A program made the translations under genes and the position numbers. Below are positions 16,393-29,814 of a DNA stretch of 64,000 nt, one piece after another. Numbering within the stretch: the stretch's first letter is position 1; each line of letters opens with the position of its first letter. The notes below the pieces were generated by a model. That model saw only the letters and a program-made list of their open reading frames with translations. It was not told the DNA's origin and did no database searches. Origin of the DNA: Synergistaceae bacterium (GTDB taxonomy: Bacteria; Synergistota; Synergistia; Synergistales; Aminobacteriaceae); assembly GCA_018436595.1 (NCBI GenBank), contig JAHDLC010000013.1, positions 1 to 64,000 on the forward strand, given 5' to 3'.

Positions 16393-16440
16393 TTGACAGG
16401 ACGGTAGTTGGAGGGTAAGATAGTAACCAATTACTATCTT
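16393..16440 (+). promoter_or_regulatory. tetR promoter with perfect 10-4-10 palindromic operator
   Basis: TTGACA (16393-16398), 17 bp, TAAGAT (16416-16421). The palindrome AAGATAGTAA-CCAA-TTACTATCTT (16417-16440) has ten perfectly paired bases per arm and covers the -10 box and the expected transcription start. This is the classical layout for autorepression by the TetR protein encoded just downstream. Confidence 0.85.
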
Positions 16441-16464
16441 GTAAAAAGGAGAAGGTGCAGCCTT

Positions 16465-17082
16465 ATGGCAACGAACGGAAAATATCTTCCCGCGGAGGAA
16501 CGGCGGGCCGTCATCGTGGAAACCGTCCTCACTCTCGCAGCGGAGGGGAACCCCTCGGAGATCACCACCGCCGCCATAGCGGAGCGCATGGGACTGACCC
16601 AGGGCGCCCTTTTCCGCCATTTCCCCAGCAAGGAAGCAATCTGGGAAGCCGTCATGGCATGGGCGGCCCGGACCCTCGCCTCGAGACTGGAGACGGCGGC
16701 AACAGCCGCTCCGACGCCTCTGGATGCCCTGGAAGCTGTTTTCTTCGCCCATATCGGCTTCATCGCCGAATACCCTGGTGTGCCGGGAATTTTCTTCGGC
16801 GAACTGCAGCGCCCCGGTGACAGTCCGGCCCGGGAACGGGCGAGGGAGCTCATGGAAGATTACGGGGCACGGCTCCGGGCCATCTTCAGAGAAGGCCAGG
16901 CAGCCGGGCAGTTTTCATCGTTATTTGACTCCGACGCTGCAGCGAGTCTTTTCGTGGGGATAATCCAGGGACTGGTGCTCCAGTCGTTTCTCTCCGGTTC
17001 CCGGGGAAGCGTTTCGAAAAACGCCCCGGCGGCCTTTGCCCTTTTCCGGCGTGGCATTGAAGCGGGGGGGGATGCTCTATGA
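16465..17082 (+). CDS. TetR/AcrR-family transcriptional repressor
   Basis: A 205-residue regulator. The N-terminal helix-turn-helix reads ITTAAIAERMGLTQGALFRHFPSKEAIWEAV, the standard TetR DNA-binding domain; the rest is a helical ligand-binding domain with no recognisable specificity. The ATG at 16465 has AAGGAGAAGGTG upstream. An in-frame start at 16408 would fall inside the operator and is rejected. The gene overlaps the following adaptor gene (ATGA at 17079). I infer that it represses itself and the downstream efflux genes until an inducer binds. Confidence 0.92.
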   Translation: MATNGKYLPAEERRAVIVETVLTLAAEGNPSEITTAAIAERMGLTQGALFRHFPSKEAIWEAVMAWAARTLASRLETAATAAPTPLDALEAVFFAHIGFIAEYPGVPGIFFGELQRPGDSPARERARELMEDYGARLRAIFREGQAAGQFSSLFDSDAAASLFVGIIQGLVLQSFLSGSRGSVSKNAPAAFALFRRGIEAGGDAL

Positions 17083-18263
17083 GCAGAGTCTGGCGGACGG
17101 TTCTCCTTCTTGCGGCCATCCTCGGCCTGGCGGCACTTTTCCTGTTCGTGATGATGCGTTCGGGGCCCCTGGCGCCCGTGTCCGTGACCGCTGCGGCCGT
17201 GGAAAGACGGTCCGTTGCCCCGGCGCTCTACGGTATCGGGGTGGTGGAATCGGGGGCGGTCTACCGGGTGGGGCCTACATCCCCGGGAAGAGTCCGGGAG
17301 GTGTTTGTCGAGGTGGGCGACAGGGTTGAATCCGGACAGAAGGTCGCCGTCATGGACCCGGTGGATCTCGACCAGCGGGTGTCAGCCCAGAAAGCCCATA
17401 TCGCCAGGCTCGAGGCTTCTGTGCGGGCTGCTTCCGCCAGGACGTCGGAGACCGGCGCGAGGAAGGAGTACGCCCAGGCCCAGTCAAAGCGGTACGACAA
17501 CCTCCTGAAATCGGGGGCGGTGAGCGTGGACGCCGCCGAGGCGAAGCGCCAGGAGCGCCTGGTCACGGCGGCTGCATGGGCCTCGGCCAATGCGGACCTC
17601 CAGGCCTCCCGGGCGGAGCTGGAGCGGGCGAAGGCCGATCTCGCGGCTCTCGTGTCCCAGAAGGAAAATCTCGATCTCCTGGCTCCTGCCGGAGGGCTGG
17701 TGTCGGCCCGGGCGGCCGAACCGGGTACGACGGCGGTGGCGGGCCAGGCCGTGGTTGAAATAATAGACACCGGGAGCATCAGGGTTTCGGTCCGCTTTGA
17801 CCAGGCCGCCGCCTCGGGGCTCCGGGCCGGTCTTCCTGCGGATATCGTGCTCCGGTCAGGGAACGGTCGGGTGCACAGGGGAGCCATCCTGCGGGTGGAG
17901 CCCCTGGCGGATCCTGTTACCGAGGAAATGATCGCCAAGGCGGTCTTCGGCGAAATACCGGACCCTCTTCCTCCCCTCGGGGAGCTTGCGGAGGTGACCG
18001 TACATCTTCCTCCTCTCCCCGGAACGCCGGTCGTCCCCGACGGTGCCCTGCAGCGGTACAACGGCAGGCCGGGGGTGTGGGTGATCGAGAATGGTTCCAT
18101 TGCCTTCCGGCCTGTAAAGACGGGACGGCGTGACCTGGCCGGAACGGTGCAGATCCTTGAAGGACTCGAAGAGGGCGAACGGGTGGTGGTGTACAGCGCC
18201 AGGGCCCTGACGCCGAAGAGCAGGGTGAAGGTTCTCGAAACCCTGGAGGGGATGAAACCATGA
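17079..18263 (+). CDS. Periplasmic adaptor (HlyD/MacA-type membrane fusion protein)
   Basis: A 394-residue protein anchored by one N-terminal helix (VLLLAAILGLAALFLFVMM). GPTSPGRVREVFVEVGDRVESGQKVAVMD is the first half of the lipoyl-like domain and LLAPAGGLVSARAAEPGTTAVAGQ the second; residues of about 100-200 between them form an Ala/Glu/Arg-rich coiled coil. A beta-barrel and membrane-proximal domain follow. It would link the permease at 18260 to an outer-membrane channel. No TolC gene is next to it; the only one in the window (23833) belongs to another locus. It is coupled to the genes on both sides by ATGA overlaps. Confidence 0.9.
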   Translation: MSRVWRTVLLLAAILGLAALFLFVMMRSGPLAPVSVTAAAVERRSVAPALYGIGVVESGAVYRVGPTSPGRVREVFVEVGDRVESGQKVAVMDPVDLDQRVSAQKAHIARLEASVRAASARTSETGARKEYAQAQSKRYDNLLKSGAVSVDAAEAKRQERLVTAAAWASANADLQASRAELERAKADLAALVSQKENLDLLAPAGGLVSARAAEPGTTAVAGQAVVEIIDTGSIRVSVRFDQAAASGLRAGLPADIVLRSGNGRVHRGAILRVEPLADPVTEEMIAKAVFGEIPDPLPPLGELAEVTVHLPPLPGTPVVPDGALQRYNGRPGVWVIENGSIAFRPVKTGRRDLAGTVQILEGLEEGERVVVYSARALTPKSRVKVLETLEGMKP

Positions 18264-19462
18264 TCAGCCTCGCGGGCAGGGACATTCTCCACGGATGGGG
18301 GAAATTTGCCCTCACCGGCCTGGGGCTGGGGCTTCTCATCGGAGTGACCCTCACCATGGGCGGCGTTTACCGGGGCATGGTGGACGATGCCATGGTGCTC
18401 CTCGACAACAGCGGCGCCGATCTCTGGGTCGTCCAGCAGGAGACCCTGGGTCCCTACGCGGAGTCGTCAAGCATTTTCGATGACACCTGGAGGAGTGTCT
18501 CAGGAATGCCGGGTGTTGAGGAAGCGGCAAACGTAACATATCTTACGACCCAGGTCCGGAGGGGCACGGAAGACGTCCGGGCCATGGTGGTGGGGGTGGA
18601 CCCCGGCATGCCGGGATCTCCGGGACAACCGGGGTACCTGACGGCCGGACGGCATATCACCCGCAGCCACTATGAAGCGGTAGCCGACGGGGCCACGGGA
18701 TTTCGTCCCGGTGACGAAATCCGCATAAGGAGGAATACCTACACGGTGGTGGGCCTTACGCGCCGCATGGTCTCCTCCGGAGGGGACCCCATGATTTTCA
18801 TCCCCCTGAAGGATGCCCAGGAGGCCCAGTTCCTGAAGGACAACGACTCCATTCTGCAGCAGCGGCGCCGCACGGCGTCCAACCCGTCCCTGAACCGGCC
18901 CGGTGTGCCGGGGCTCCTGGAGAGCGTCATCACCTCCCAAAGCGCGAACCAGTACGTCAATGCCGTCCTCGTCCGTCTCCTGCCCGGGGCGGATCCGGAT
19001 GAGACGGCGGCCCATATCCGCCGGTGGCTCCGCCTGGAGGTGTACACGCGGGATCAGATGGAGGAAATTCTTCTCGGCAAGCTCATTGCCACCTCGTCCA
19101 GGCAGATCGGCATGTTCCTCGTGATTCTTGCTGTTGTGAGCGCCGCCATCGTGGCGTTCATCATCTACACCCTCACCATGGGGAAGATCCGGGAGATCGC
19201 CGTGCTGAAGCTCATCGGGACGAAGAACCGGACCATCGTGTCCATGATTCTCCAGCAGGCGGTGGGGCTTGGCGTCCTCGGTTTCATGATCGGGAAAATC
19301 GCGGCCACTTTCTGGGCCCCCTTTTTCCCCAAGTTTGTCCTGCTGCAGGCCCGGGACGCGGTGACGGGTTTCGCGGCGGTGATCGTCATGTGCGTCCTCG
19401 CAAGCATACTGGCGATACGGGCCGCCCTGAAGGTGGACCCGGCCGAGGCCATCGGAGGCTGA
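18260..19462 (+). CDS. ABC efflux permease, MacB/FtsX (ABC3) type
   Basis: A 400-residue permease with one N-terminal membrane helix, a large periplasmic region (about residues 45-275), and three C-terminal helices (VILAVVSAAIVAFIIYTL, the VGLGVLGFMIG region and FAAVIVMCVLASILAI). This 1+3 topology is that of MacB, LolC/E and DevC. The end ALKVDPAEAIGG is the usual tail of this family. With the adaptor and ATPase it forms a mechanotransmission-type exporter rather than a classical import channel. Its substrate is unknown. Confidence 0.9.
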   Translation: MISLAGRDILHGWGKFALTGLGLGLLIGVTLTMGGVYRGMVDDAMVLLDNSGADLWVVQQETLGPYAESSSIFDDTWRSVSGMPGVEEAANVTYLTTQVRRGTEDVRAMVVGVDPGMPGSPGQPGYLTAGRHITRSHYEAVADGATGFRPGDEIRIRRNTYTVVGLTRRMVSSGGDPMIFIPLKDAQEAQFLKDNDSILQQRRRTASNPSLNRPGVPGLLESVITSQSANQYVNAVLVRLLPGADPDETAAHIRRWLRLEVYTRDQMEEILLGKLIATSSRQIGMFLVILAVVSAAIVAFIIYTLTMGKIREIAVLKLIGTKNRTIVSMILQQAVGLGVLGFMIGKIAATFWAPFFPKFVLLQARDAVTGFAAVIVMCVLASILAIRAALKVDPAEAIGG

Positions 19463-19463
19463 C

Positions 19464-20219
19464 ATGGCGGAGCGGCAGACGCGGGGGATCATCATCGAAG
19501 GGCTGCGCAAGCGCTACGGAGCCGGGGAGACGGCGGTGGATGCCCTGAAAGGGGTGGACATGGCGGTGTCTCCCGGCGAGGTGGTGGGCCTCATCGGACC
19601 CTCGGGGTCCGGAAAGACCACCCTCCTGAAATGTCTCGGCGCGGTGATCGAACCAACAGCCGGGCGGATGACCCTGGGAAACGATGTCATCTATGACGGA
19701 AAGTGGAGGATAAAGGATCTCAGGGCCCTGCGGAGGGACAGGATCGGGTTCATTTTCCAGGCCCCCTACCTCATACCTTTTCTGAACGTGACGGACAACG
19801 TGGCCCTGCTTCCCATGCTCGCGGGCCATTCCGACGGGGAGTCAAGGACCCGGGCCGGAGAACTCCTGGAAGCCCTGGATGTGGCCCACAGGGCATCCGC
19901 CATGCCCTCCCAGCTTTCGGGGGGGGAACAGCAGCGGGTAGCCATAGCCAGGGCCCTGGCGAACAGACCCCCGGTGATCCTGGCCGACGAGCCCACGGCA
20001 CCCCTGGACAGCGAGCGGGCCCTGTCGGTGATCACCATACTGAACGCCATGGCGAAACAGTATGAAACGGCCATCATCGTGGTCACCCACGATGAAAAGA
20101 TCATTCCCACCTTCCGGAGAATTTACCGTATCCGGGACGGGAGGACGGAAGAAACGGCCGGCGAAGGCCGTTCCACGGAAAAACCTGAAACAGGAAAACC
20201 AGAGGAGGAGAGAGCATGA
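19464..20219 (+). CDS. ABC efflux ATPase, MacB/LolD/DevA type
   Basis: A 251-residue ATPase with Walker [13 protein letters not shown], signature [15 protein letters not shown], Walker [13 protein letters not shown] and switch His in [18 protein letters not shown] replaces the usual [16 protein letters not shown] form, a minor oddity. It starts 1 nt after the permease stop, and the cupin gene begins inside its own stop codon. It powers the 17079-20219 exporter. Confidence 0.92.
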
Positions 20220-23697: not shown

Positions 23698-23727
23698 TTG
23701 ACACGGTGTGTTTTGTAATGTTATAAC
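23698..23727 (+). promoter_or_regulatory. Strong promoter of the secretion locus (TTGACA-N18-TATAAC)
   Basis: TTGACA at 23698-23703 and TATAAC at 23722-23727 with 18 bp between. The surrounding 23590-23830 is clearly richer in A+T than the rest of the window. The resulting leader is about 100 nt. This is one of the best promoter matches in the window. Confidence 0.8.
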
Positions 23728-23832
23728 AATTTGAGAAATGTTTCAGGGTGGTATTTTTTAAAGCCTGATTTGTGGGAATGTTATTTGTATTTAAAGAAAA
23801 TGCATTGTTCATTTTTGACGGGGAGTTTTGGC

Positions 23833-25995
23833 ATGAAAAAATTACTGCTTGCCTTTCTGATGCTTTTTTTTCTCCGGGGAAACAGCCGGGCCGAACCCCG
23901 GATCGGTCTTCCCGACCTCGAGAGGGAGCTGACCTCCTCTCCCGAGGTTCTTGCGGCGGCGGCTTCCCTGTCCGAAAGCAGGGCCGTTGAAGAACGGCAC
24001 AAGATGACCGGGGGCCCCAGGTTTTTCGGCGAACTCTCCCTCGGAGGGCTGAATGAGCCCGCTTCAAGAAGTGAAACTTCGGCCCTGGAGGGCTACACAA
24101 AACTCTGGGCCAGGGGCGGCATTTCCATTCCTCTCTTCGGCACCTGGCAAAAGGAGCGTATAAGGGAGCTGGAAAACCGGATAATATCCCTTGGGGAGGA
24201 ACTTCGCCTTTTTGCGGTCCGGAAAGCGAACCTCACCGCTCTCAGGAAGGCCTATGCCCTGCTGTGGACGATCCAGGAGAGAAATGCGCTCCTTGAGCGC
24301 TTTCTCGCTCTCGAGGAGCGGATCATGCCGCTCCTCGCAAAGAGGACAAAAGAGGGGTTTCTTCTCGAGAGGGATCGCCTCGAGATGGAGAGCTGGTTTT
24401 CCTTCGCCCGCAGAGAGGCTGCCGCCGGCTCTTTGCTGAAAGAGGAGTGCCTTGCCCTTATCAGGAAGGCGACGGGCCGGAAGGGGCTTTTCGGCCTTGA
24501 GGCCCTTTTCCCGCGCCTTGAGCCCTTGTTCTTTTCCGGGGACGTTCTTGCCAGGGCCGCAGGGGAGGAGAACCGGGAACTGCAGATTCTCACAAAGGCT
24601 GCGGAGACAAAACGGGAGATTGCGCGCCGGGTTCCCGGGGCCCAGTACGATGCATACCTCAGGGCGGGATACGGTTTTTCCTCGGAGTTCCCGGGGAGGA
24701 ACGGTACAGAGGCCTTTCTGTCCATAGCCTTCGATGTCCCCTTCAGGGAAGGCAGGGCGGCATCCGCCGCAGGGCGGGCCGCCCTGGCCGGGGCAGAGAA
24801 AGCCGGGCATGAAATGGAGGCGAGGCGCATCGCCATCGTGGCGGACATCCGGGGAGGAATTGCCCGGTTCGACTCCGCCGCCGCCCAGCGGACCTTTGCC
24901 ATGGCCAACGCCCGTACAGCAGCGGAGTCCGTCCGGGCTGACAGGCTCAGGTACGGGCTTCTTCCCGGAGATATGCTGGAGCAGCTCTTCAGGAGCCTCT
25001 TCATCTACCTTTCCTCGGCACTGGCTTTTGTTGACAGCGAAGGGGCACTGCTGCAGGCGCACTGTGAACTCCTCGGAATGCTTCCTGCCGCCGCAGACGG
25101 CGGAGATGGAAAGATAATTGCCTCCTTTTTCCCTGAAGAACCGGAACGGCTTCGTCTCCTGGCTCCTTCATGGCTCGACTTCGCAACGGCCTTTTCGTCA
25201 GCTCCTGCTGCCGGAAAGCCCGCCCTTTCGCCTTCGGGAAAGGTGTTTTATTTCTGGAATGGAGACGACCTGCTGTATCCGGGAAAGGGGAAGGCCTTTT
25301 TCGACCAGGCCGCAAAGGAAGGCGCTTCAGGGGTTCTTGTTTCATTTTCGCCCCGGGGAATCGCCTTTCTGAGGACCGCAGGGGGAAAGGCCCGCCTGGA
25401 AGAAACCCTTGAAGCGGCCCGCAGGACCGGCATCAGGGCTGAACTGCTTCTCGGAGACCCTGCGTGGATCCTGGCCGCCCACAGGAAGGAACTTACCGGT
25501 CTCCTAAGGGAGCTGGACGGCTTTGCCTTTTCGGGAATCCATCTTGATCTGGAGCCGGATCAGCTCCCGGACGCCGAAGGAAGGCGCATGGAACTGCTTC
25601 TCTCCCTTACGGAGACCGTCCGCGAGGTGAAGAGGGCAACCCGGCTGCCCGTTTCCCTTTCCGTCCACCCCCGCTATCTCGAGGGCAGCCTGGGACCAGT
25701 TGCCGCCAGGGAGTTCGGGGCGGCGGGAGTAAATGAAATCGCCGTGATGATCTATTCCACGAAGGTTGATGCCGTCGCCTCGAGGATGAAAGCCATACTC
25801 TCCTCCTGGCCGGGGCTGCGCTTCCGCCTCGCCGTTTCCGTGGAAAGGGAGCTGTCCGGCACGGAAAGCTTTTTCAGGGGAGGAAAAAAGAGTTTCCTCG
25901 AGACGGTCGATTTCCTTCAGGGGGAACTGGCTTCTCCCTCTTTTGCCGGTACGGCCGTGCAATCATGGGAAAACTACAGGGAGATGGCACGATGA
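23833..25995 (+). CDS. TolC-family outer-membrane channel fused to a C-terminal GH18-like TIM barrel
   Basis: A 720-residue exported protein with signal peptide MKKLLLAFLMLFFLRGNSRA. Residues about 20-435 show the two-fold TolC pattern: long Leu/Ala/Glu-rich helices and two beta-strand regions (RGGISIPLFG and FLSIAFDVPF). Residues about 460-720 form a second domain: GKVFYFWNGDDLLYPG, then GIHLDLEPD (Glu574), SLSVHPRYL, VMIY (639-641) and a final QSWENY (Trp712). That strand order resembles GH18-like barrels, where a Glu after a hydrophobic strand is the acid. TolC proteins are normally about 430-500 residues, so the fusion is real unless the barrel is misread. It is the first gene of a four-gene operon, coupled to the HlyD gene by ATGA. 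I infer an outer-membrane exit duct with a polymer-trimming or binding domain. Confidence 0.8.
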   Translation: MKKLLLAFLMLFFLRGNSRAEPRIGLPDLERELTSSPEVLAAAASLSESRAVEERHKMTGGPRFFGELSLGGLNEPASRSETSALEGYTKLWARGGISIPLFGTWQKERIRELENRIISLGEELRLFAVRKANLTALRKAYALLWTIQERNALLERFLALEERIMPLLAKRTKEGFLLERDRLEMESWFSFARREAAAGSLLKEECLALIRKATGRKGLFGLEALFPRLEPLFFSGDVLARAAGEENRELQILTKAAETKREIARRVPGAQYDAYLRAGYGFSSEFPGRNGTEAFLSIAFDVPFREGRAASAAGRAALAGAEKAGHEMEARRIAIVADIRGGIARFDSAAAQRTFAMANARTAAESVRADRLRYGLLPGDMLEQLFRSLFIYLSSALAFVDSEGALLQAHCELLGMLPAAADGGDGKIIASFFPEEPERLRLLAPSWLDFATAFSSAPAAGKPALSPSGKVFYFWNGDDLLYPGKGKAFFDQAAKEGASGVLVSFSPRGIAFLRTAGGKARLEETLEAARRTGIRAELLLGDPAWILAAHRKELTGLLRELDGFAFSGIHLDLEPDQLPDAEGRRMELLLSLTETVREVKRATRLPVSLSVHPRYLEGSLGPVAAREFGAAGVNEIAVMIYSTKVDAVASRMKAILSSWPGLRFRLAVSVERELSGTESFFRGGKKSFLETVDFLQGELASPSFAGTAVQSWENYREMAR

Positions 25996-27089
25996 AAGTC
26001 AGGTTTACTTCACCTAAAAAGCAGAATCCGGACGAGGACGGAGGGCTTCCCGTCCGGTACGGCCCGGCGAAGCGGGCCGTACCGAAATGGAGGTGGTACA
26101 TCCTCGTCCTGGTCATATCGACGCCCCTTCTGTTTCTCCTCTGGCGGGTCGGGGCCGCCATGTTCTTCATCAATGCCCCGGGGGTGATTTCCCTTGAGAA
26201 GGTCAGCATCAACAGTCCCTTCCCGGCCGTGGTGGAGAGGATCTCCGTGTCCCCCGGGGCCAGAACGGCTCACGGCGATCTGCTCATGCGCCTGGAAGAC
26301 CCTGTGGTGACCCAGAGGATCTACGTCCTGCAGGCGGAGCTGGAGGCGCTGAAGACCGGAGTGCCCGGCGCCGCGGGGGATTCCCCTTCCAGGGCCGCAT
26401 TTGCAACAGTCCGCATAGCGGAGGAGGGCGTGAGGTACCAGAAAGGGTACAGGGACTCGATACAGTCTCTCTTCAGACAGGGAGCCGCCACAAGGGCCGA
26501 GGCCGACGCTGCCGAGGAAAGGTACAGGCAGGCCCTCTCAGCTCTGGCGGAGGCCAGGGCATCGGTTGCCCTTCTCCAGGCTCCGGATCTGTCCAGGCAG
26601 GAGTCGGCGGCCCAGAGAAATACCAGGATCGCCCAGATTGAGGCGGAATTGAAGGGGCTGGAAGAACGGAAGGGGTTTTTCTCCGTGGTCAGCCCCGGCG
26701 AAGGACGGGTACTGGATGTTTTTCCCACCGAAGGGCAATCCGTCGCCGGGGGGACACCCCTCGTTCTCCTGGGGCGTCCCCAGTCCCTGAAGGTGATGGC
26801 CTACCTTCAGCCACGGCACATTTCCTATGCGAAAGAGGGCGAGAAGGTTATCGTACGCCTGCCGGGAAGCCTCTCGGTCTCCGGCATGGTTTCCGCGACG
26901 CCCGAAATCGCCGCCCGCATTCCGGCGGAACTCGCCGGCGTTCTGGCGGAGGGAAAGCAGACCCTGCTCGTCAGGATCGATCTCGATGAACCCCTTGCCG
27001 GTCATCTTCGCGTCGAAGGGCTGCCGGTGTCCGTCCATTTCGGTTTTTCTCTCCGGAAGAGCCTCCAGCTTCTCTCCGGGGAATCATGA
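25992..27089 (+). CDS. HlyD-like periplasmic adaptor of the secretion locus
   Basis: A 365-residue protein. About 30 cytoplasmic residues precede one membrane helix (WYILVLVISTPLLFLLW). VERISVSPGARTAHGDLLMRLEDPVV and GRVLDVFPTEGQSVAGGTPLVLLG are the two halves of a lipoyl-like domain, separated by a coiled coil of about 110 residues. A beta-barrel with IVRLPGSLSVSGMVS follows. This is the Alg44/EmrA-like adaptor layout. There is no ABC or MFS pump in the operon, so the natural partner in the inner membrane is the glycosyltransferase at 28477. The ATG at 25992 lies in the stop codon of the TolC fusion. Confidence 0.88.
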   Translation: MKVRFTSPKKQNPDEDGGLPVRYGPAKRAVPKWRWYILVLVISTPLLFLLWRVGAAMFFINAPGVISLEKVSINSPFPAVVERISVSPGARTAHGDLLMRLEDPVVTQRIYVLQAELEALKTGVPGAAGDSPSRAAFATVRIAEEGVRYQKGYRDSIQSLFRQGAATRAEADAAEERYRQALSALAEARASVALLQAPDLSRQESAAQRNTRIAQIEAELKGLEERKGFFSVVSPGEGRVLDVFPTEGQSVAGGTPLVLLGRPQSLKVMAYLQPRHISYAKEGEKVIVRLPGSLSVSGMVSATPEIAARIPAELAGVLAEGKQTLLVRIDLDEPLAGHLRVEGLPVSVHFGFSLRKSLQLLSGES

Positions 27090-27102
27090 CAGGAGGGAAA
27101 GC

Positions 27103-28470
27103 ATGAAAGACCAGGGAAACGAGCATGATACAGGAATGAACCTTTTCTTTCTCACGGATCCCGGGGACCTTTCCGCAACCCTCTCATCCGGCGGGGGGCT
27201 CCCTGACGGCTTTATCCTCGGCAGGTGCGGGTCCGGCAGCGAATGCGGCCATATGCTCAGGGAGCTCCGGAAGGGAGACGAAACGGCCCTTCTGCCCGTT
27301 TTTCTGGAGGATTTTCCTTCGGACGGTGACCGGGAGGCGGCGGACGGACCGGCCAGGACGAAAGAGGAGATGGAGAATCTGGCCCGGGAGATTGGGAACA
27401 GGCTGAGGGATGTGGATGAAAATGCCCTCCGTAAAAGTCTCGATCTCAGGCTCCTGGCCTTTCTCTATTCCCGGGAGGGCAAAAAGCTGAGGCCTGTTCT
27501 TGACCCTCTTTCCAGGGAGCTTTATTCCTATCCCCTTGCAGATCATCTCTCCGGAGGGCTGCTTGACTCGTCCAGGTGGATATCCGAACTGCTGGAGAAA
27601 GGCTACCTCGAGGAAGAGTCTCTTGCCGACAGGATCAGGGCGTGCCCGAAATGCGGCGGCGCCCACCTGAATTACGTGGATGTCTGCCCCTTCTGCAGAA
27701 GCATGGACATCCGCCAGGTTCCCTTCATTCACTGTTTCACGTGCGGAAGGGTAGGTCCCCAGGAGGCCTTTGTCAGGGAGGGGCCCATGCAGTGTCCCTT
27801 CTGCGGGGCAAGGCTGCGCCATATCGGTTCGGATTACGACAGGCCCATGGACAATTATCTCTGCAGCTCCTGTTCCCAGACCTTTGCGGAACCGGATGTC
27901 TCGTGCAGGTGTTTTCTCTGCGGCGCATGGAGCCCCGCGGATGGGCTGTCGGTGCGCTCCTTCAGGGAGTATTCCCTTTCAGACAAGGGGGTGATTGCCG
28001 TCAGGAGCGGAAACACCGATGACATGTATTCCGTATTCGACGCCCTGAACTATACCAAGCCGGAGCCGTTCCGCCATATCCTCGACTGGCAGCTCCAGCT
28101 CTCGGGCAGGCCTCCCGTGGAGCCTTTCAGCCTCATGATCATCTCCTTCCCCAACGTTGAAAAAGTCAAGGAAAAGCTGGGCCGGAAAAAGGTGACGGAG
28201 ATCATGGAGAGCCTGGCGAGGCGTCTTCGGGAGAGAATCAGAAAAACCGATATCAGCACCAGGACGGCGGAAAACGATCTTCTCCTTCTTCTCCCCAAAA
28301 CGGGAGAAAAGGGCTGTGCGGTTCTGGCATCCAAAGTGAGAGAGCTCGAAAAGGAGACCCTGCAGCCCGACGGCCTTGTCATGGAAATTTCCGTGAAGAC
28401 GGCGGTCTTCCCCGGGGACAGGGTGGAGGGAGAGGACGCCGTGCTTCTGGTGGCACGGCTGAAGGGCTGA
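27103..28470 (+). CDS. TackOD1-like zinc-ribbon protein with degenerate GGDEF domain
   Basis: A 455-residue cytoplasmic protein with no membrane segment. Residues about 12-75 read like a receiver-type fold (LPDGFILGR, then HMLRELRKGD and LPVFLEDF), with Gly where the phospho-acceptor Asp would sit. Residues 181-273 carry six CxxC-type pairs (CPKC, CPFC, CFTC, CPFC, CSSC, CFLC), enough for three zinc ribbons. This is the pattern I recall as the TackOD1 output domain. Residues about 335-455 resemble a GGDEF domain (FSLMIISFPN, RTAENDLLLLLP), but the signature is AENDL (389-393), so cyclase activity is unlikely. I infer a regulatory subunit that gates polymer synthesis. AGGAGGG precedes the ATG. 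Confidence 0.78.
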   Translation: MKDQGNEHDTGMNLFFLTDPGDLSATLSSGGGLPDGFILGRCGSGSECGHMLRELRKGDETALLPVFLEDFPSDGDREAADGPARTKEEMENLAREIGNRLRDVDENALRKSLDLRLLAFLYSREGKKLRPVLDPLSRELYSYPLADHLSGGLLDSSRWISELLEKGYLEEESLADRIRACPKCGGAHLNYVDVCPFCRSMDIRQVPFIHCFTCGRVGPQEAFVREGPMQCPFCGARLRHIGSDYDRPMDNYLCSSCSQTFAEPDVSCRCFLCGAWSPADGLSVRSFREYSLSDKGVIAVRSGNTDDMYSVFDALNYTKPEPFRHILDWQLQLSGRPPVEPFSLMIISFPNVEKVKEKLGRKKVTEIMESLARRLRERIRKTDISTRTAENDLLLLLPKTGEKGCAVLASKVRELEKETLQPDGLVMEISVKTAVFPGDRVEGEDAVLLVARLKG

Positions 28471-28476
28471 CCGTTC

Positions 28477-29814
28477 ATGGATGACTGGCTTCTTTTTCTT
28501 TTCCGGGGTCTGCGGGCCTTCGTCGATGATCCCCTCGCCTCGGAGCTCTGGGTGGTCGTATTCAGGTTCGTCCCCTTCATCCTTGCCCTGGAGCTGCCCT
28601 ATTATCTCTTTGTCTTCTCCGGCATTCTCAGGTACATCCTCAGGAAGAGGCATGAGATTCCCTTGGGGTCTACCCTCTTTCCGCCCGTATCCTGCATCAT
28701 CACCTGCTACTCGGAGGGAAAGGATATCCGGAAGACCATCATGAGCCTGGCCGCGCAGCTGTATCCCGGAAAGATAGAGATCATCCCCGTGCTGGACGGT
28801 GCATCGGCCAACAAGCCCACCTACGACGCGGCCTATGAGATGGAGAAAGATGTGAATTCCCTCCCGGGAAGGGTGCTGAAATGCCTTCCCAAGTGGAAGA
28901 GAGGGGGGCGGGTTTCCTCCCTCAACTCCGGTTTTGCCCTCTCCACGGGAGACGTTATCATGGCCATGGACGGGGATACCTCCTTCGACAACGATATGGT
29001 GGAAAACGCCGTCCGCCACTTCAGCAATCCCGATGTGATGTGCGTCTCCGGGTGCCTCCGGGTCCGCAACTGGAGGGATTCCCCCGCCGCTGCCCTCCAG
29101 GCCGTCGAGTACCTCGTGTCCATCCTCGCGAGCAAGACGGGGCTCAGCGAATTCAACGCGGTCAACAACATTTCCGGAGCTTTCGGCATCTTCAGGAGAG
29201 ATGTGCTCACCCTCATCGGCGGATGGGATGCCGGGACCGCCGAAGACCTGGATCTCACCCTCAGGGTGAAGAACTATTTCGGCAGGCACCGGAACATGCG
29301 CATCGTCTTCGACCCCGAGGTGATGGGCCATACTGACGCCCCGGACACCTTCCGCGGTTTCTTCAGGCAAAGGCTCCGGTGGGACGGGGATCTTTTCTAT
29401 CTCTACTTCCTCAAACATTTCCGCTCTTTCTCGCCGAGGCTCATGGGATGGCCCAACCTTATCGTCTCCACGGTGGGCGGTCTTCTTTTCCAGATCGTCA
29501 CCCCCCTGCTTCTCTTCCTCTACACTGTATTCCTGCTGGCAACCGTCCCCATGACCGTCATCGGAGTCGTCATGGGTCTCGTCTATCTTTTTTACTTCTC
29601 GGTGGAAACCTTTTTCTTCCTCGTGATGCTCTTCTTCCTCTCCGAGCGCCCGAGAGAAGACGCCATGCTCATTCCCCTCCTTCCTCTCATGCCCGTATTC
29701 ACCTTCGTCACCCGGATCTGGTCGGCCTTTGCCGTCCTCTGGGAAATGACCGGACGGGGCCATCTGGACACCTCCATGGCTCCCTGGTGGGTGCTCAGGA
29801 AAACGAAATTCTGA
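28477..29814 (+). CDS. Processive family-2 glycosyltransferase (polysaccharide synthase)
   Basis: A 445-residue inner-membrane enzyme. A membrane helix near the N-terminus precedes a GT2 catalytic domain with SCIITCYSEGKD, the DxD in MAMDGDT (165-167), the acid in GTAEDLDL (Asp257) and QRLRW (298-302), the acceptor-site QxxRW of processive synthases such as BcsA, PgaC and hyaluronan synthase. At least four membrane helices follow (about residues 325-425) and would form the translocation channel. It has no PilZ domain. As last gene of the operon it supplies the polymer that the adaptor and TolC fusion would carry outward. The sugar cannot be deduced. Confidence 0.9.
   Translation: MDDWLLFLFRGLRAFVDDPLASELWVVVFRFVPFILALELPYYLFVFSGILRYILRKRHEIPLGSTLFPPVSCIITCYSEGKDIRKTIMSLAAQLYPGKIEIIPVLDGASANKPTYDAAYEMEKDVNSLPGRVLKCLPKWKRGGRVSSLNSGFALSTGDVIMAMDGDTSFDNDMVENAVRHFSNPDVMCVSGCLRVRNWRDSPAAALQAVEYLVSILASKTGLSEFNAVNNISGAFGIFRRDVLTLIGGWDAGTAEDLDLTLRVKNYFGRHRNMRIVFDPEVMGHTDAPDTFRGFFRQRLRWDGDLFYLYFLKHFRSFSPRLMGWPNLIVSTVGGLLFQIVTPLLLFLYTVFLLATVPMTVIGVVMGLVYLFYFSVETFFFLVMLFFLSERPREDAMLIPLLPLMPVFTFVTRIWSAFAVLWEMTGRGHLDTSMAPWWVLRKTKF

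Follow-up and report, generated by a model that had tools for sequence, protein, structure and literature searches.

By what route might a sugar polymer leave the cell when the gene for its synthase stands beside genes for a HlyD-type adaptor and a TolC-type outer-membrane channel? This question is raised by a run of four genes at positions 23698-29814 of a 64,000-nucleotide stretch of DNA (positions 1 to 64,000 of contig JAHDLC010000013.1, hereafter the window) from a Synergistaceae bacterium (assembly GCA_018436595.1; 3.2 Mb in 50 contigs). A systematic operon survey of synthase-dependent systems describes exit by means of tetratricopeptide repeat (TPR) proteins and an outer-membrane pore, and makes no mention of TolC or HlyD (PMC7112194). 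Using comparative genomics, sequence profiles and structure models we propose, with a probability of about 0.7, that the operon codes for a self-contained, cyclic di-GMP (c-di-GMP)-gated, synthase-dependent polysaccharide secretion machine with a TolC-type exit. Members of at least five bacterial phyla carry the gene set. It is somewhat more probable than the opposite that it represents a widespread, separate class of secretion system, which would combine a family 2 glycosyltransferase (GT2), a HlyD-TolC duct replacing the porin and TPR proteins, a switch that joins TackOD1 to a degenerate GGDEF domain, and an exit channel that bears the glycosidase.

A candidate operon for polymer synthesis and export

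The promoter-like site and the four genes are:

23698..23727, plus strand: TTGACA-18 bp-TATAAC, a promoter-like site in which TG stands one base ahead of the -10 element; the sole match in the window
23833..25995, plus strand: TolC-type outer-membrane channel fused to a GH18-like TIM barrel, 720 aa, with an N-terminal hydrophobic signal (Pfam, AlphaFold, Foldseek)
25992..27089, plus strand: HlyD-type periplasmic adaptor, 365 aa, with one N-terminal transmembrane (TM) helix (Pfam HlyD_3)
27103..28470, plus strand: TackOD1-GGDEF protein, 455 aa, with a receiver-like N-terminus, a zinc-ribbon TackOD1 domain and a degenerate GGDEF domain (Pfam, AlphaFold)
28477..29814, plus strand: GT2 synthase, 445 aa, with D, DGD, ED and QRLRW motifs and C-terminal membrane segments (Pfam Glyco_tranf_2_3)

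The gaps between these co-directional open reading frames (ORFs) are -4 (an ATGA overlap), 13 and 6 bp, and thus amount to operon spacing; Pfam assigns each of the four genes (OEP, HlyD_3, TackOD1 plus GGDEF, and Glyco_tranf_2_3) above its cut-off. When up to one mismatch is allowed, 0.03 sites of the type TTGACA-18-TATAAC are expected per shuffled 64-kb window; the site was found by direct pattern search, having been missed by a sigma-70 scan that demanded T at the last -10 position. An Rfam scan of the window returned no matches. An earlier, sequence-only reading of this DNA had described four co-directional genes behind one promoter, coding for a TolC-type duct fused to a TIM barrel, a HlyD-like adaptor, a zinc-ribbon/degenerate GGDEF protein and a processive GT2 synthase. 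The ORFs, their spacing and the single promoter-like site agree with that description, and the four assignments are borne out respectively by Pfam OEP, AlphaFold and Foldseek, by the HlyD_3 score, by a strong TackOD1 match with a lost GGDEF signature, and by the Pfam match and invariant motifs of the synthase, as detailed below.

Conservation of the gene set

To establish how far the four genes are inherited together we collected their relatives in two ways. Within the Synergistota the PF18551 (TackOD1) profile scored above its cut-off in 32 of 188 genomes, and the surroundings of 19 relatives contain TolC-barrel, HlyD, TackOD1 and GT2 genes in the same order in 19/19, at HlyD identities down to 28%; contig ends truncate one of these loci, and an insertion interrupts the TackOD1 gene of another (L066). 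The reciprocal search with the barrel alone recovered 32 Synergistota genomes, 31 of them also with TackOD1; one genome is discordant in each direction and about 155 have neither. The discordant genomes are G120, which is 66% complete, and G029, which has only a short barrel fragment. Beyond this phylum, 80 loci emerged when 84,980 species genomes were searched using nothing but the TackOD1 profile. They belong to Pseudomonadota, Thermodesulfobacteriota, Planctomycetota, Acidobacteriota and Synergistota, with, in addition, two distrusted metagenome-assembled genomes (MAGs) of Bacillota. GT2 adjoins TackOD1 in 79/80 of these loci (78 above the 100-bit threshold and one contig-end fragment); HlyD is present in 75, the other five ending inside the cluster, and the barrel, with or without TolC, in 71, most gaps being contig ends. 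An even draw of 398 Pseudomonadota genomes contained 15 above the TackOD1 cut-off, and comparison of these 15 loci found GT2 adjacent in all and HlyD in 14, the one without HlyD being cut by a contig end.

The finding that the earlier reading named as refuting its proposal, GT2 and TolC/HlyD genes not conserved together, was therefore not borne out in the Synergistota or across the at least five phyla. The four-gene order that it suggested searching for holds in the Synergistota; elsewhere TackOD1, GT2 and HlyD are kept, but the order differs, being mostly TackOD1, GT2, TolC-barrel, HlyD, and TolC is not universal. In an IQ-TREE phylogeny of GT2 (89 rows) the loci with TolC first fall on one side of a branch with support 85/82, and all 15 loci that have the barrel without TolC form one Pseudomonas clade (100/100) nested among full-fusion loci, which suggests a single loss of the TolC half in that clade.

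We also clustered the genes within 4.5 kb of about 95 loci. No pump gene is common to these flanks, and Pfam detects no ABC, MFS or RND pump within the operon, in keeping with the earlier claim that an ABC or MFS pump is lacking; the other ground for refutation named there, a TolC gene always paired with an ABC pump, does not hold. The families that recur beyond close relatives are a GalE-like sugar epimerase, located directly after HlyD in Pseudomonas and upstream in locus L053, and scattered GGDEF/PAS/HD signalling proteins. In the window, positions 16408-20219 code for a TetR protein, a membrane-fusion protein (MFP), a MacB-type permease and an ABC ATPase with no outer-membrane partner, about 3.6 kb upstream of the operon. 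The nearest relative (L051) lacks this exporter upstream of the operon while otherwise retaining the genes around it, which points to a recent gain or loss.

Several individual loci deserve separate mention. The insertion in L066 (7454-10245, genome G140) carries an apparent ISAs1-type transposase on the opposite strand. The barrel fragment at G029:C2:1035665-1035928, which lacks an accompanying TackOD1, comes from the same genus as the full-module genome G054 and is possibly a remnant; two genomes congeneric with the window (G001 and G004) lack the module, so that its presence varies within the genus. The two Bacillota MAGs (L120 and L142, labelled Oscillospiraceae and Bacillota) show the Synergistota-type order including TolC, and are likely mis-binned contigs or diderm lineages. 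In L191 (4642-12067), from the even draw, the core adjoins a PilZ-bearing cellulose-synthase-like GT2 and another HlyD protein. In the divergent modules L187 (9684-12453) and L188 (9460-12965) a large secreted protein occupies the place of the TolC-barrel before HlyD; one of these proteins has an AMIN domain, and in L187 a TPR protein precedes the large protein, a possible different outer-membrane exit. Finally, in a Legionellales MAG without the TolC-barrel (L099, 12635-13546) a GH16-family gene follows TackOD1-GT2-HlyD, possibly as a replacement hydrolase.

The GT2 synthase

The defining motif of the fourth gene product is:

29368..29382, plus strand: QRLRW motif of processive GT2 enzymes (invariant in both alignments)

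The protein matches Glyco_tranf_2_3 with 73.8 bits (cut-off 27). Residues D107, DGD165-167 (with D165 and D167 invariant), ED256-257 and QRxRW298-302 are conserved throughout the alignments, and hydrophobic segments reach residue 414 of 445. Judged by the QRxRW and D/DGD/ED motifs and the C-terminal membrane segments, the enzyme is of the processive type. The nearest curated families are PgaC/IcaA, an XrtG-associated glycosyltransferase and NodC; profile matches in PDB include hyaluronan and cellulose synthases, with a best E-value of about 1e-11 and no close solved relative. Membership of the poly-N-acetylglucosamine (PNAG) or cellulose systems was considered and rejected, given 122.8 bits against the 422.3-bit cut-off for NCBIfam PgaC_IcaA, 20.3 bits against 699.1 for CelA, and no PilZ domain in the protein. 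The combination of a PgaC-like synthase with a GH18-like barrel hints weakly at an N-acetylhexosamine-containing polymer as a first guess for this lineage.

A putative c-di-GMP receptor

Two segments of the third gene product bear on its function:

27424..27978, plus strand: TackOD1 domain with invariant CxxC pairs and HCFxC (Pfam, alignment)
28240..28251, plus strand: I-site RKTD (R380-D383), which precedes the degenerate GGDEF motif AENDL by five residues (RxxD in 94/94 homologues)

Pfam recognises TackOD1 (PF18551) with 218.3 bits (cut-off 32) and GGDEF with 35.4 bits (cut-off 23.8), and the AlphaFold model (mean pLDDT 89.9) displays the N-terminus, then TackOD1, then a GGDEF fold; from its alternating strands and helices the N-terminus looks receiver-like. 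Examination of the homologues revealed that the inhibitory-site (I-site) RxxD is retained in 94/94 and the catalytic GG[DE]EF in 0/94; RxxD is likewise kept in 14 of the 15 even-draw Pseudomonadota loci. Position 411, which is 31 residues after the arginine of the I-site, is R in 90/94 and K in the remaining four, the window protein having K. The spacing of R, D and third R is that of R359, D362 and R390 in the inhibitory site of PleD. The corresponding I-site residues of the receptor PelD are R367, D370 and R402 (PMC8461298). The degenerate GGDEF domain thus bears a PelD-like signature of a c-di-GMP receptor, and the protein may accordingly be predicted to bind this nucleotide. The sequence-only reading had set the locus apart from systems with a PilZ or GGDEF receptor. 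This is right as regards PilZ, the host genome having two PilZ domains (alongside 27 GGDEF domains), neither of them in the operon; but a GGDEF-type receptor does appear to be present, because the degenerate domain keeps its I-site as in PelD. The 'degenerate GGDEF' biofilm proteins of Pseudomonas fluorescens were considered as the same protein and rejected, as they are GGDEF-EAL proteins (PMC12175535).

A TolC-type channel with a GH18-like barrel, and its adaptor

The following elements of the first two gene products were delineated:

23902..25080, plus strand: TolC domain, spanning approximately residues 24-416 and built of two hairpin repeats (2+2 beta strands; model secondary structure, Foldseek)
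25237..25986, plus strand: TIM barrel, spanning approximately residues 469-718, with GH18 chitinase as the nearest fold among solved structures (AlphaFold model, Foldseek)
25540..25560, plus strand: HLDLEPD, where barrel strand 4 ends; position equivalent to GH18 DxDxE (D572 and E574 invariant, 85/85)
25747..25755, plus strand: MIY, where barrel strand 6 ends; position equivalent to GH18 MxYD (M639 85/85, Y641 84/85)
26469..26501, plus strand: hairpin-tip motif L-x3-GAAT-x2-E of the adaptor, residues 160-170, of the TolC-docking type (L160 87/89, E170 83/89, T/S167 82/89)

The window protein scores 23 bits against the OEP cut-off of 22, and OEP is matched in 16/17 homologues. In the AlphaFold model of its 720 residues (mean pLDDT 91.7) a TolC protomer precedes a TIM barrel of eight strands, which is confidently predicted at residues 469-710. 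Foldseek searches with the N-terminal part recovered TolC, OprM and CusC with E-values of about 1e-13 to 1e-11; those with the barrel gave 6k7z, 9i2p, 3ian and 9ojl among the best matches (6k7z: E-value 2.6e-5, TM-score 0.60 normalised by target). The sequence libraries (Pfam, NCBIfam and PDB sequences) gave no match to the barrel, which is seen in the structure model only. Invariant or nearly invariant residues cluster at the C-terminal ends of its strands (W475, D572, E574, H612-R614, M639, Y641, S669-E671 and Q710). Compared with the GH18 signatures DxxDxDxE and MxYD, strand 4 has HxDxE and strand 6 MIYS, so that the D and E are kept, H replaces the first D and no D follows the Y, and there is no GH18 Pfam match. 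Since the first D is replaced and the D after Y is missing, we term the barrel GH18-like rather than a proven member of GH18. Its fold and the invariant acids on the active-site face make it a probable periplasmic glycosidase.

The adaptor matches HlyD_3 with 38.5 bits (cut-off 22.2) and has a conserved cytoplasmic motif, YxPxKR...RWY, at its N-terminus. Across homologues the hairpin tip conforms to L-x3-GA[AV][TS]-x2-E, the L-x6-S/T part of which resembles the tip that docks AcrA and MacA to TolC. The tip is mostly GAAT where TolC is fused and GAVS in the clade without TolC; it is degraded in three Legionellales-type loci with neither TolC nor barrel, and another five even-draw loci without TolC show a different tip that contains G. 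As few lineages are involved, we take this pattern as supporting evidence, not proof.

Relationship to known systems

The closest parallel is the GT2-HlyD-TolC route proposed for cyanobacterial cellulose (XcsA-XcsB-TolC; Maeda 2018, as reviewed), described as unproven (PMC12430437). It shares with the window operon a GT2 synthase, a HlyD-type adaptor, a TolC-type exit, a c-di-GMP-type receptor domain (PilZ) and a glycosidase (XcsC); but XcsA is a PilZ-bearing cellulose synthase and the genes are scattered in T. vulcanus (PMC12430437), whereas here all parts including the outer-membrane channel lie in one operon, the putative TackOD1-GGDEF receptor is a separate protein and the probable glycosidase forms one polypeptide with TolC. 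The BgsBA system of rhizobia, which makes a mixed-linkage beta-glucan, likewise places a GT2 next to a HlyD-domain protein and is activated by c-di-GMP; it differs in that c-di-GMP binds the C-terminus of BgsA and no TolC, glycoside hydrolase or TackOD1 is described in the two-gene operon (PMC9495663, PMC5567048).

Pel uses PelD, a degenerate GGDEF with an RxxD I-site, as receptor for polymer synthesis (PMC8461298). In the Pga system, whose PgaC is nearest to our GT2, a glycoside-hydrolase domain also accompanies the synthase (PgaB, PMC5933820); the window GT2 lies well below the PgaC cut-off, and a Pfam scan detected no PgaA porin-TPR protein, PgaB deacetylase or PgaD in the four genes or their immediate neighbours. 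In alginate synthesis a single protein, Alg44, combines a c-di-GMP domain with a membrane-fusion domain in the periplasm (PMC8461298), with PilZ fused to the MFP; in the window receptor and adaptor are two proteins, and the exit is of TolC type. Among the four operon genes Pfam and NCBIfam find none of the cellulose parts BcsA-PilZ, BcsB and BcsC. PelD has four TM helices and a GAF domain, the Pel synthase PelF belongs to GT4 and the Pel exit is of the TPR/porin type; alginate leaves by the AlgE porin. We found no description of the TackOD1/GT2/HlyD/TolC-barrel gene set in the open-access literature, and it might be described elsewhere. The earlier suggestion that the locus is possibly undescribed thus stands for the gene set, but the general GT2-HlyD-TolC route had already been proposed (PMC12430437).

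Proposed mechanism and alternative explanations

From the gene order, co-inheritance, folds and conserved residues presented above we infer the following sequence of events. Binding of c-di-GMP to the RxxD I-site of the degenerate GGDEF would cause the TackOD1 protein to activate the adjacent inner-membrane GT2 synthase. As its processive motifs indicate, this enzyme would polymerise a nucleotide-activated sugar and extrude the chain via its own membrane channel. The HlyD-type adaptor, on the strength of its fold and tip motif, might replace BcsB or the periplasmic domain of Alg44 and hand the chain to a TolC trimer. The GH18-like barrel, with its invariant active-site residues, could trim or clear periplasmic polymer, as BcsZ, PgaB, PelA and AlgL do elsewhere.

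Several observations weigh against this proposal. The TolC-barrel is detected beside the core in only 4/15 even-draw loci, which is why we regard TackOD1-GT2-HlyD as the invariant core; several gammaproteobacterial loci have these three genes alone, and together with the 15 TolC-less Pseudomonas loci they indicate that the gene set does not require a TolC of its own. Many ordinary GGDEF domains contain RxxD, and its presence alone says little; what counts for the receptor argument is that RxxD stays invariant although the active site has been lost. The product of the GT2 cannot be named from its sequence, as the scores are far below every curated cut-off, and the GH16 (L099) and GalE-like (Pseudomonas) neighbours suggest other sugars in other lineages, contrary to one single polymer.

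Of the alternatives, the one that survives best, though still unlikely, is that the TackOD1 protein, GT2 and HlyD constitute a c-di-GMP-controlled synthase whose polymer exits elsewhere, with the TolC-barrel as an accessory providing a channel for other cargo. The Pseudomonas clade that lost TolC while keeping barrel, adaptor and synthase, the gammaproteobacterial loci without TolC, and the further OEP genes in the host genome speak for such an arrangement. Against this, most loci carry TolC as a fusion with the barrel, and the barrels that have lost their TolC map to one clade; the tip changes from L..GAAT..E with fused TolC to L..GAVS..E without, the latter consistent with docking to a housekeeping TolC, and it is degraded in the Legionellales loci that lack both TolC and barrel.

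Rather less probable is that the TackOD1-GGDEF protein is a metal or stress sensor regulating the operon via another ligand, with c-di-GMP uninvolved. The description of TackOD1 as a zinc-ribbon-like domain of obscure function (PMC5847659) leaves room for such a role, as does the K411 of the window protein; the invariance of RxxD, its retention in the even draw, R or K at the third position in 94/94, and GGDEF proteins near several loci speak for c-di-GMP instead. We give slightly less weight again to a GT2 whose product is a short or lipid-linked glycan, or which adds sugars to a component of the cell surface, the other proteins moving or trimming the product: the enzyme does lie far below the PgaC, NodC and CelA cut-offs and has no close solved relative, but its motifs and C-terminal membrane segments make up the processive-synthase signature, and its nearest curated families and solved matches are the synthases named above. 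That TolC and HlyD are drug-efflux or type I pump parts, with GT2 and TackOD1 merely co-transcribed and the upstream MacB-type exporter as the pump, would account for an MFP, permease and ATPase at 17079-20219 without an OEP, but is very improbable and was rejected, being contradicted by synteny (the nearest relative has the four genes without that cluster in their upstream neighbourhood), by the lack of any pump conserved in the flanks and by the near-universal GT2 adjacency.

Conclusions

For cyanobacterial cellulose the hand-over of polymer to TolC is described as unproven, partly because the genes are scattered (PMC12430437). In the present gene set a single operon brings all parts together, also in strains of Pseudomonas and Stutzerimonas that can be cultured, so that this step becomes directly testable. 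The bacterial TackOD1 domain would also gain a likely role in c-di-GMP-controlled polymer synthesis, and an uncharacterised biofilm-type polymer is predicted in many genera, including Pseudomonas, Nitrosomonas and Thioalkalivibrio.

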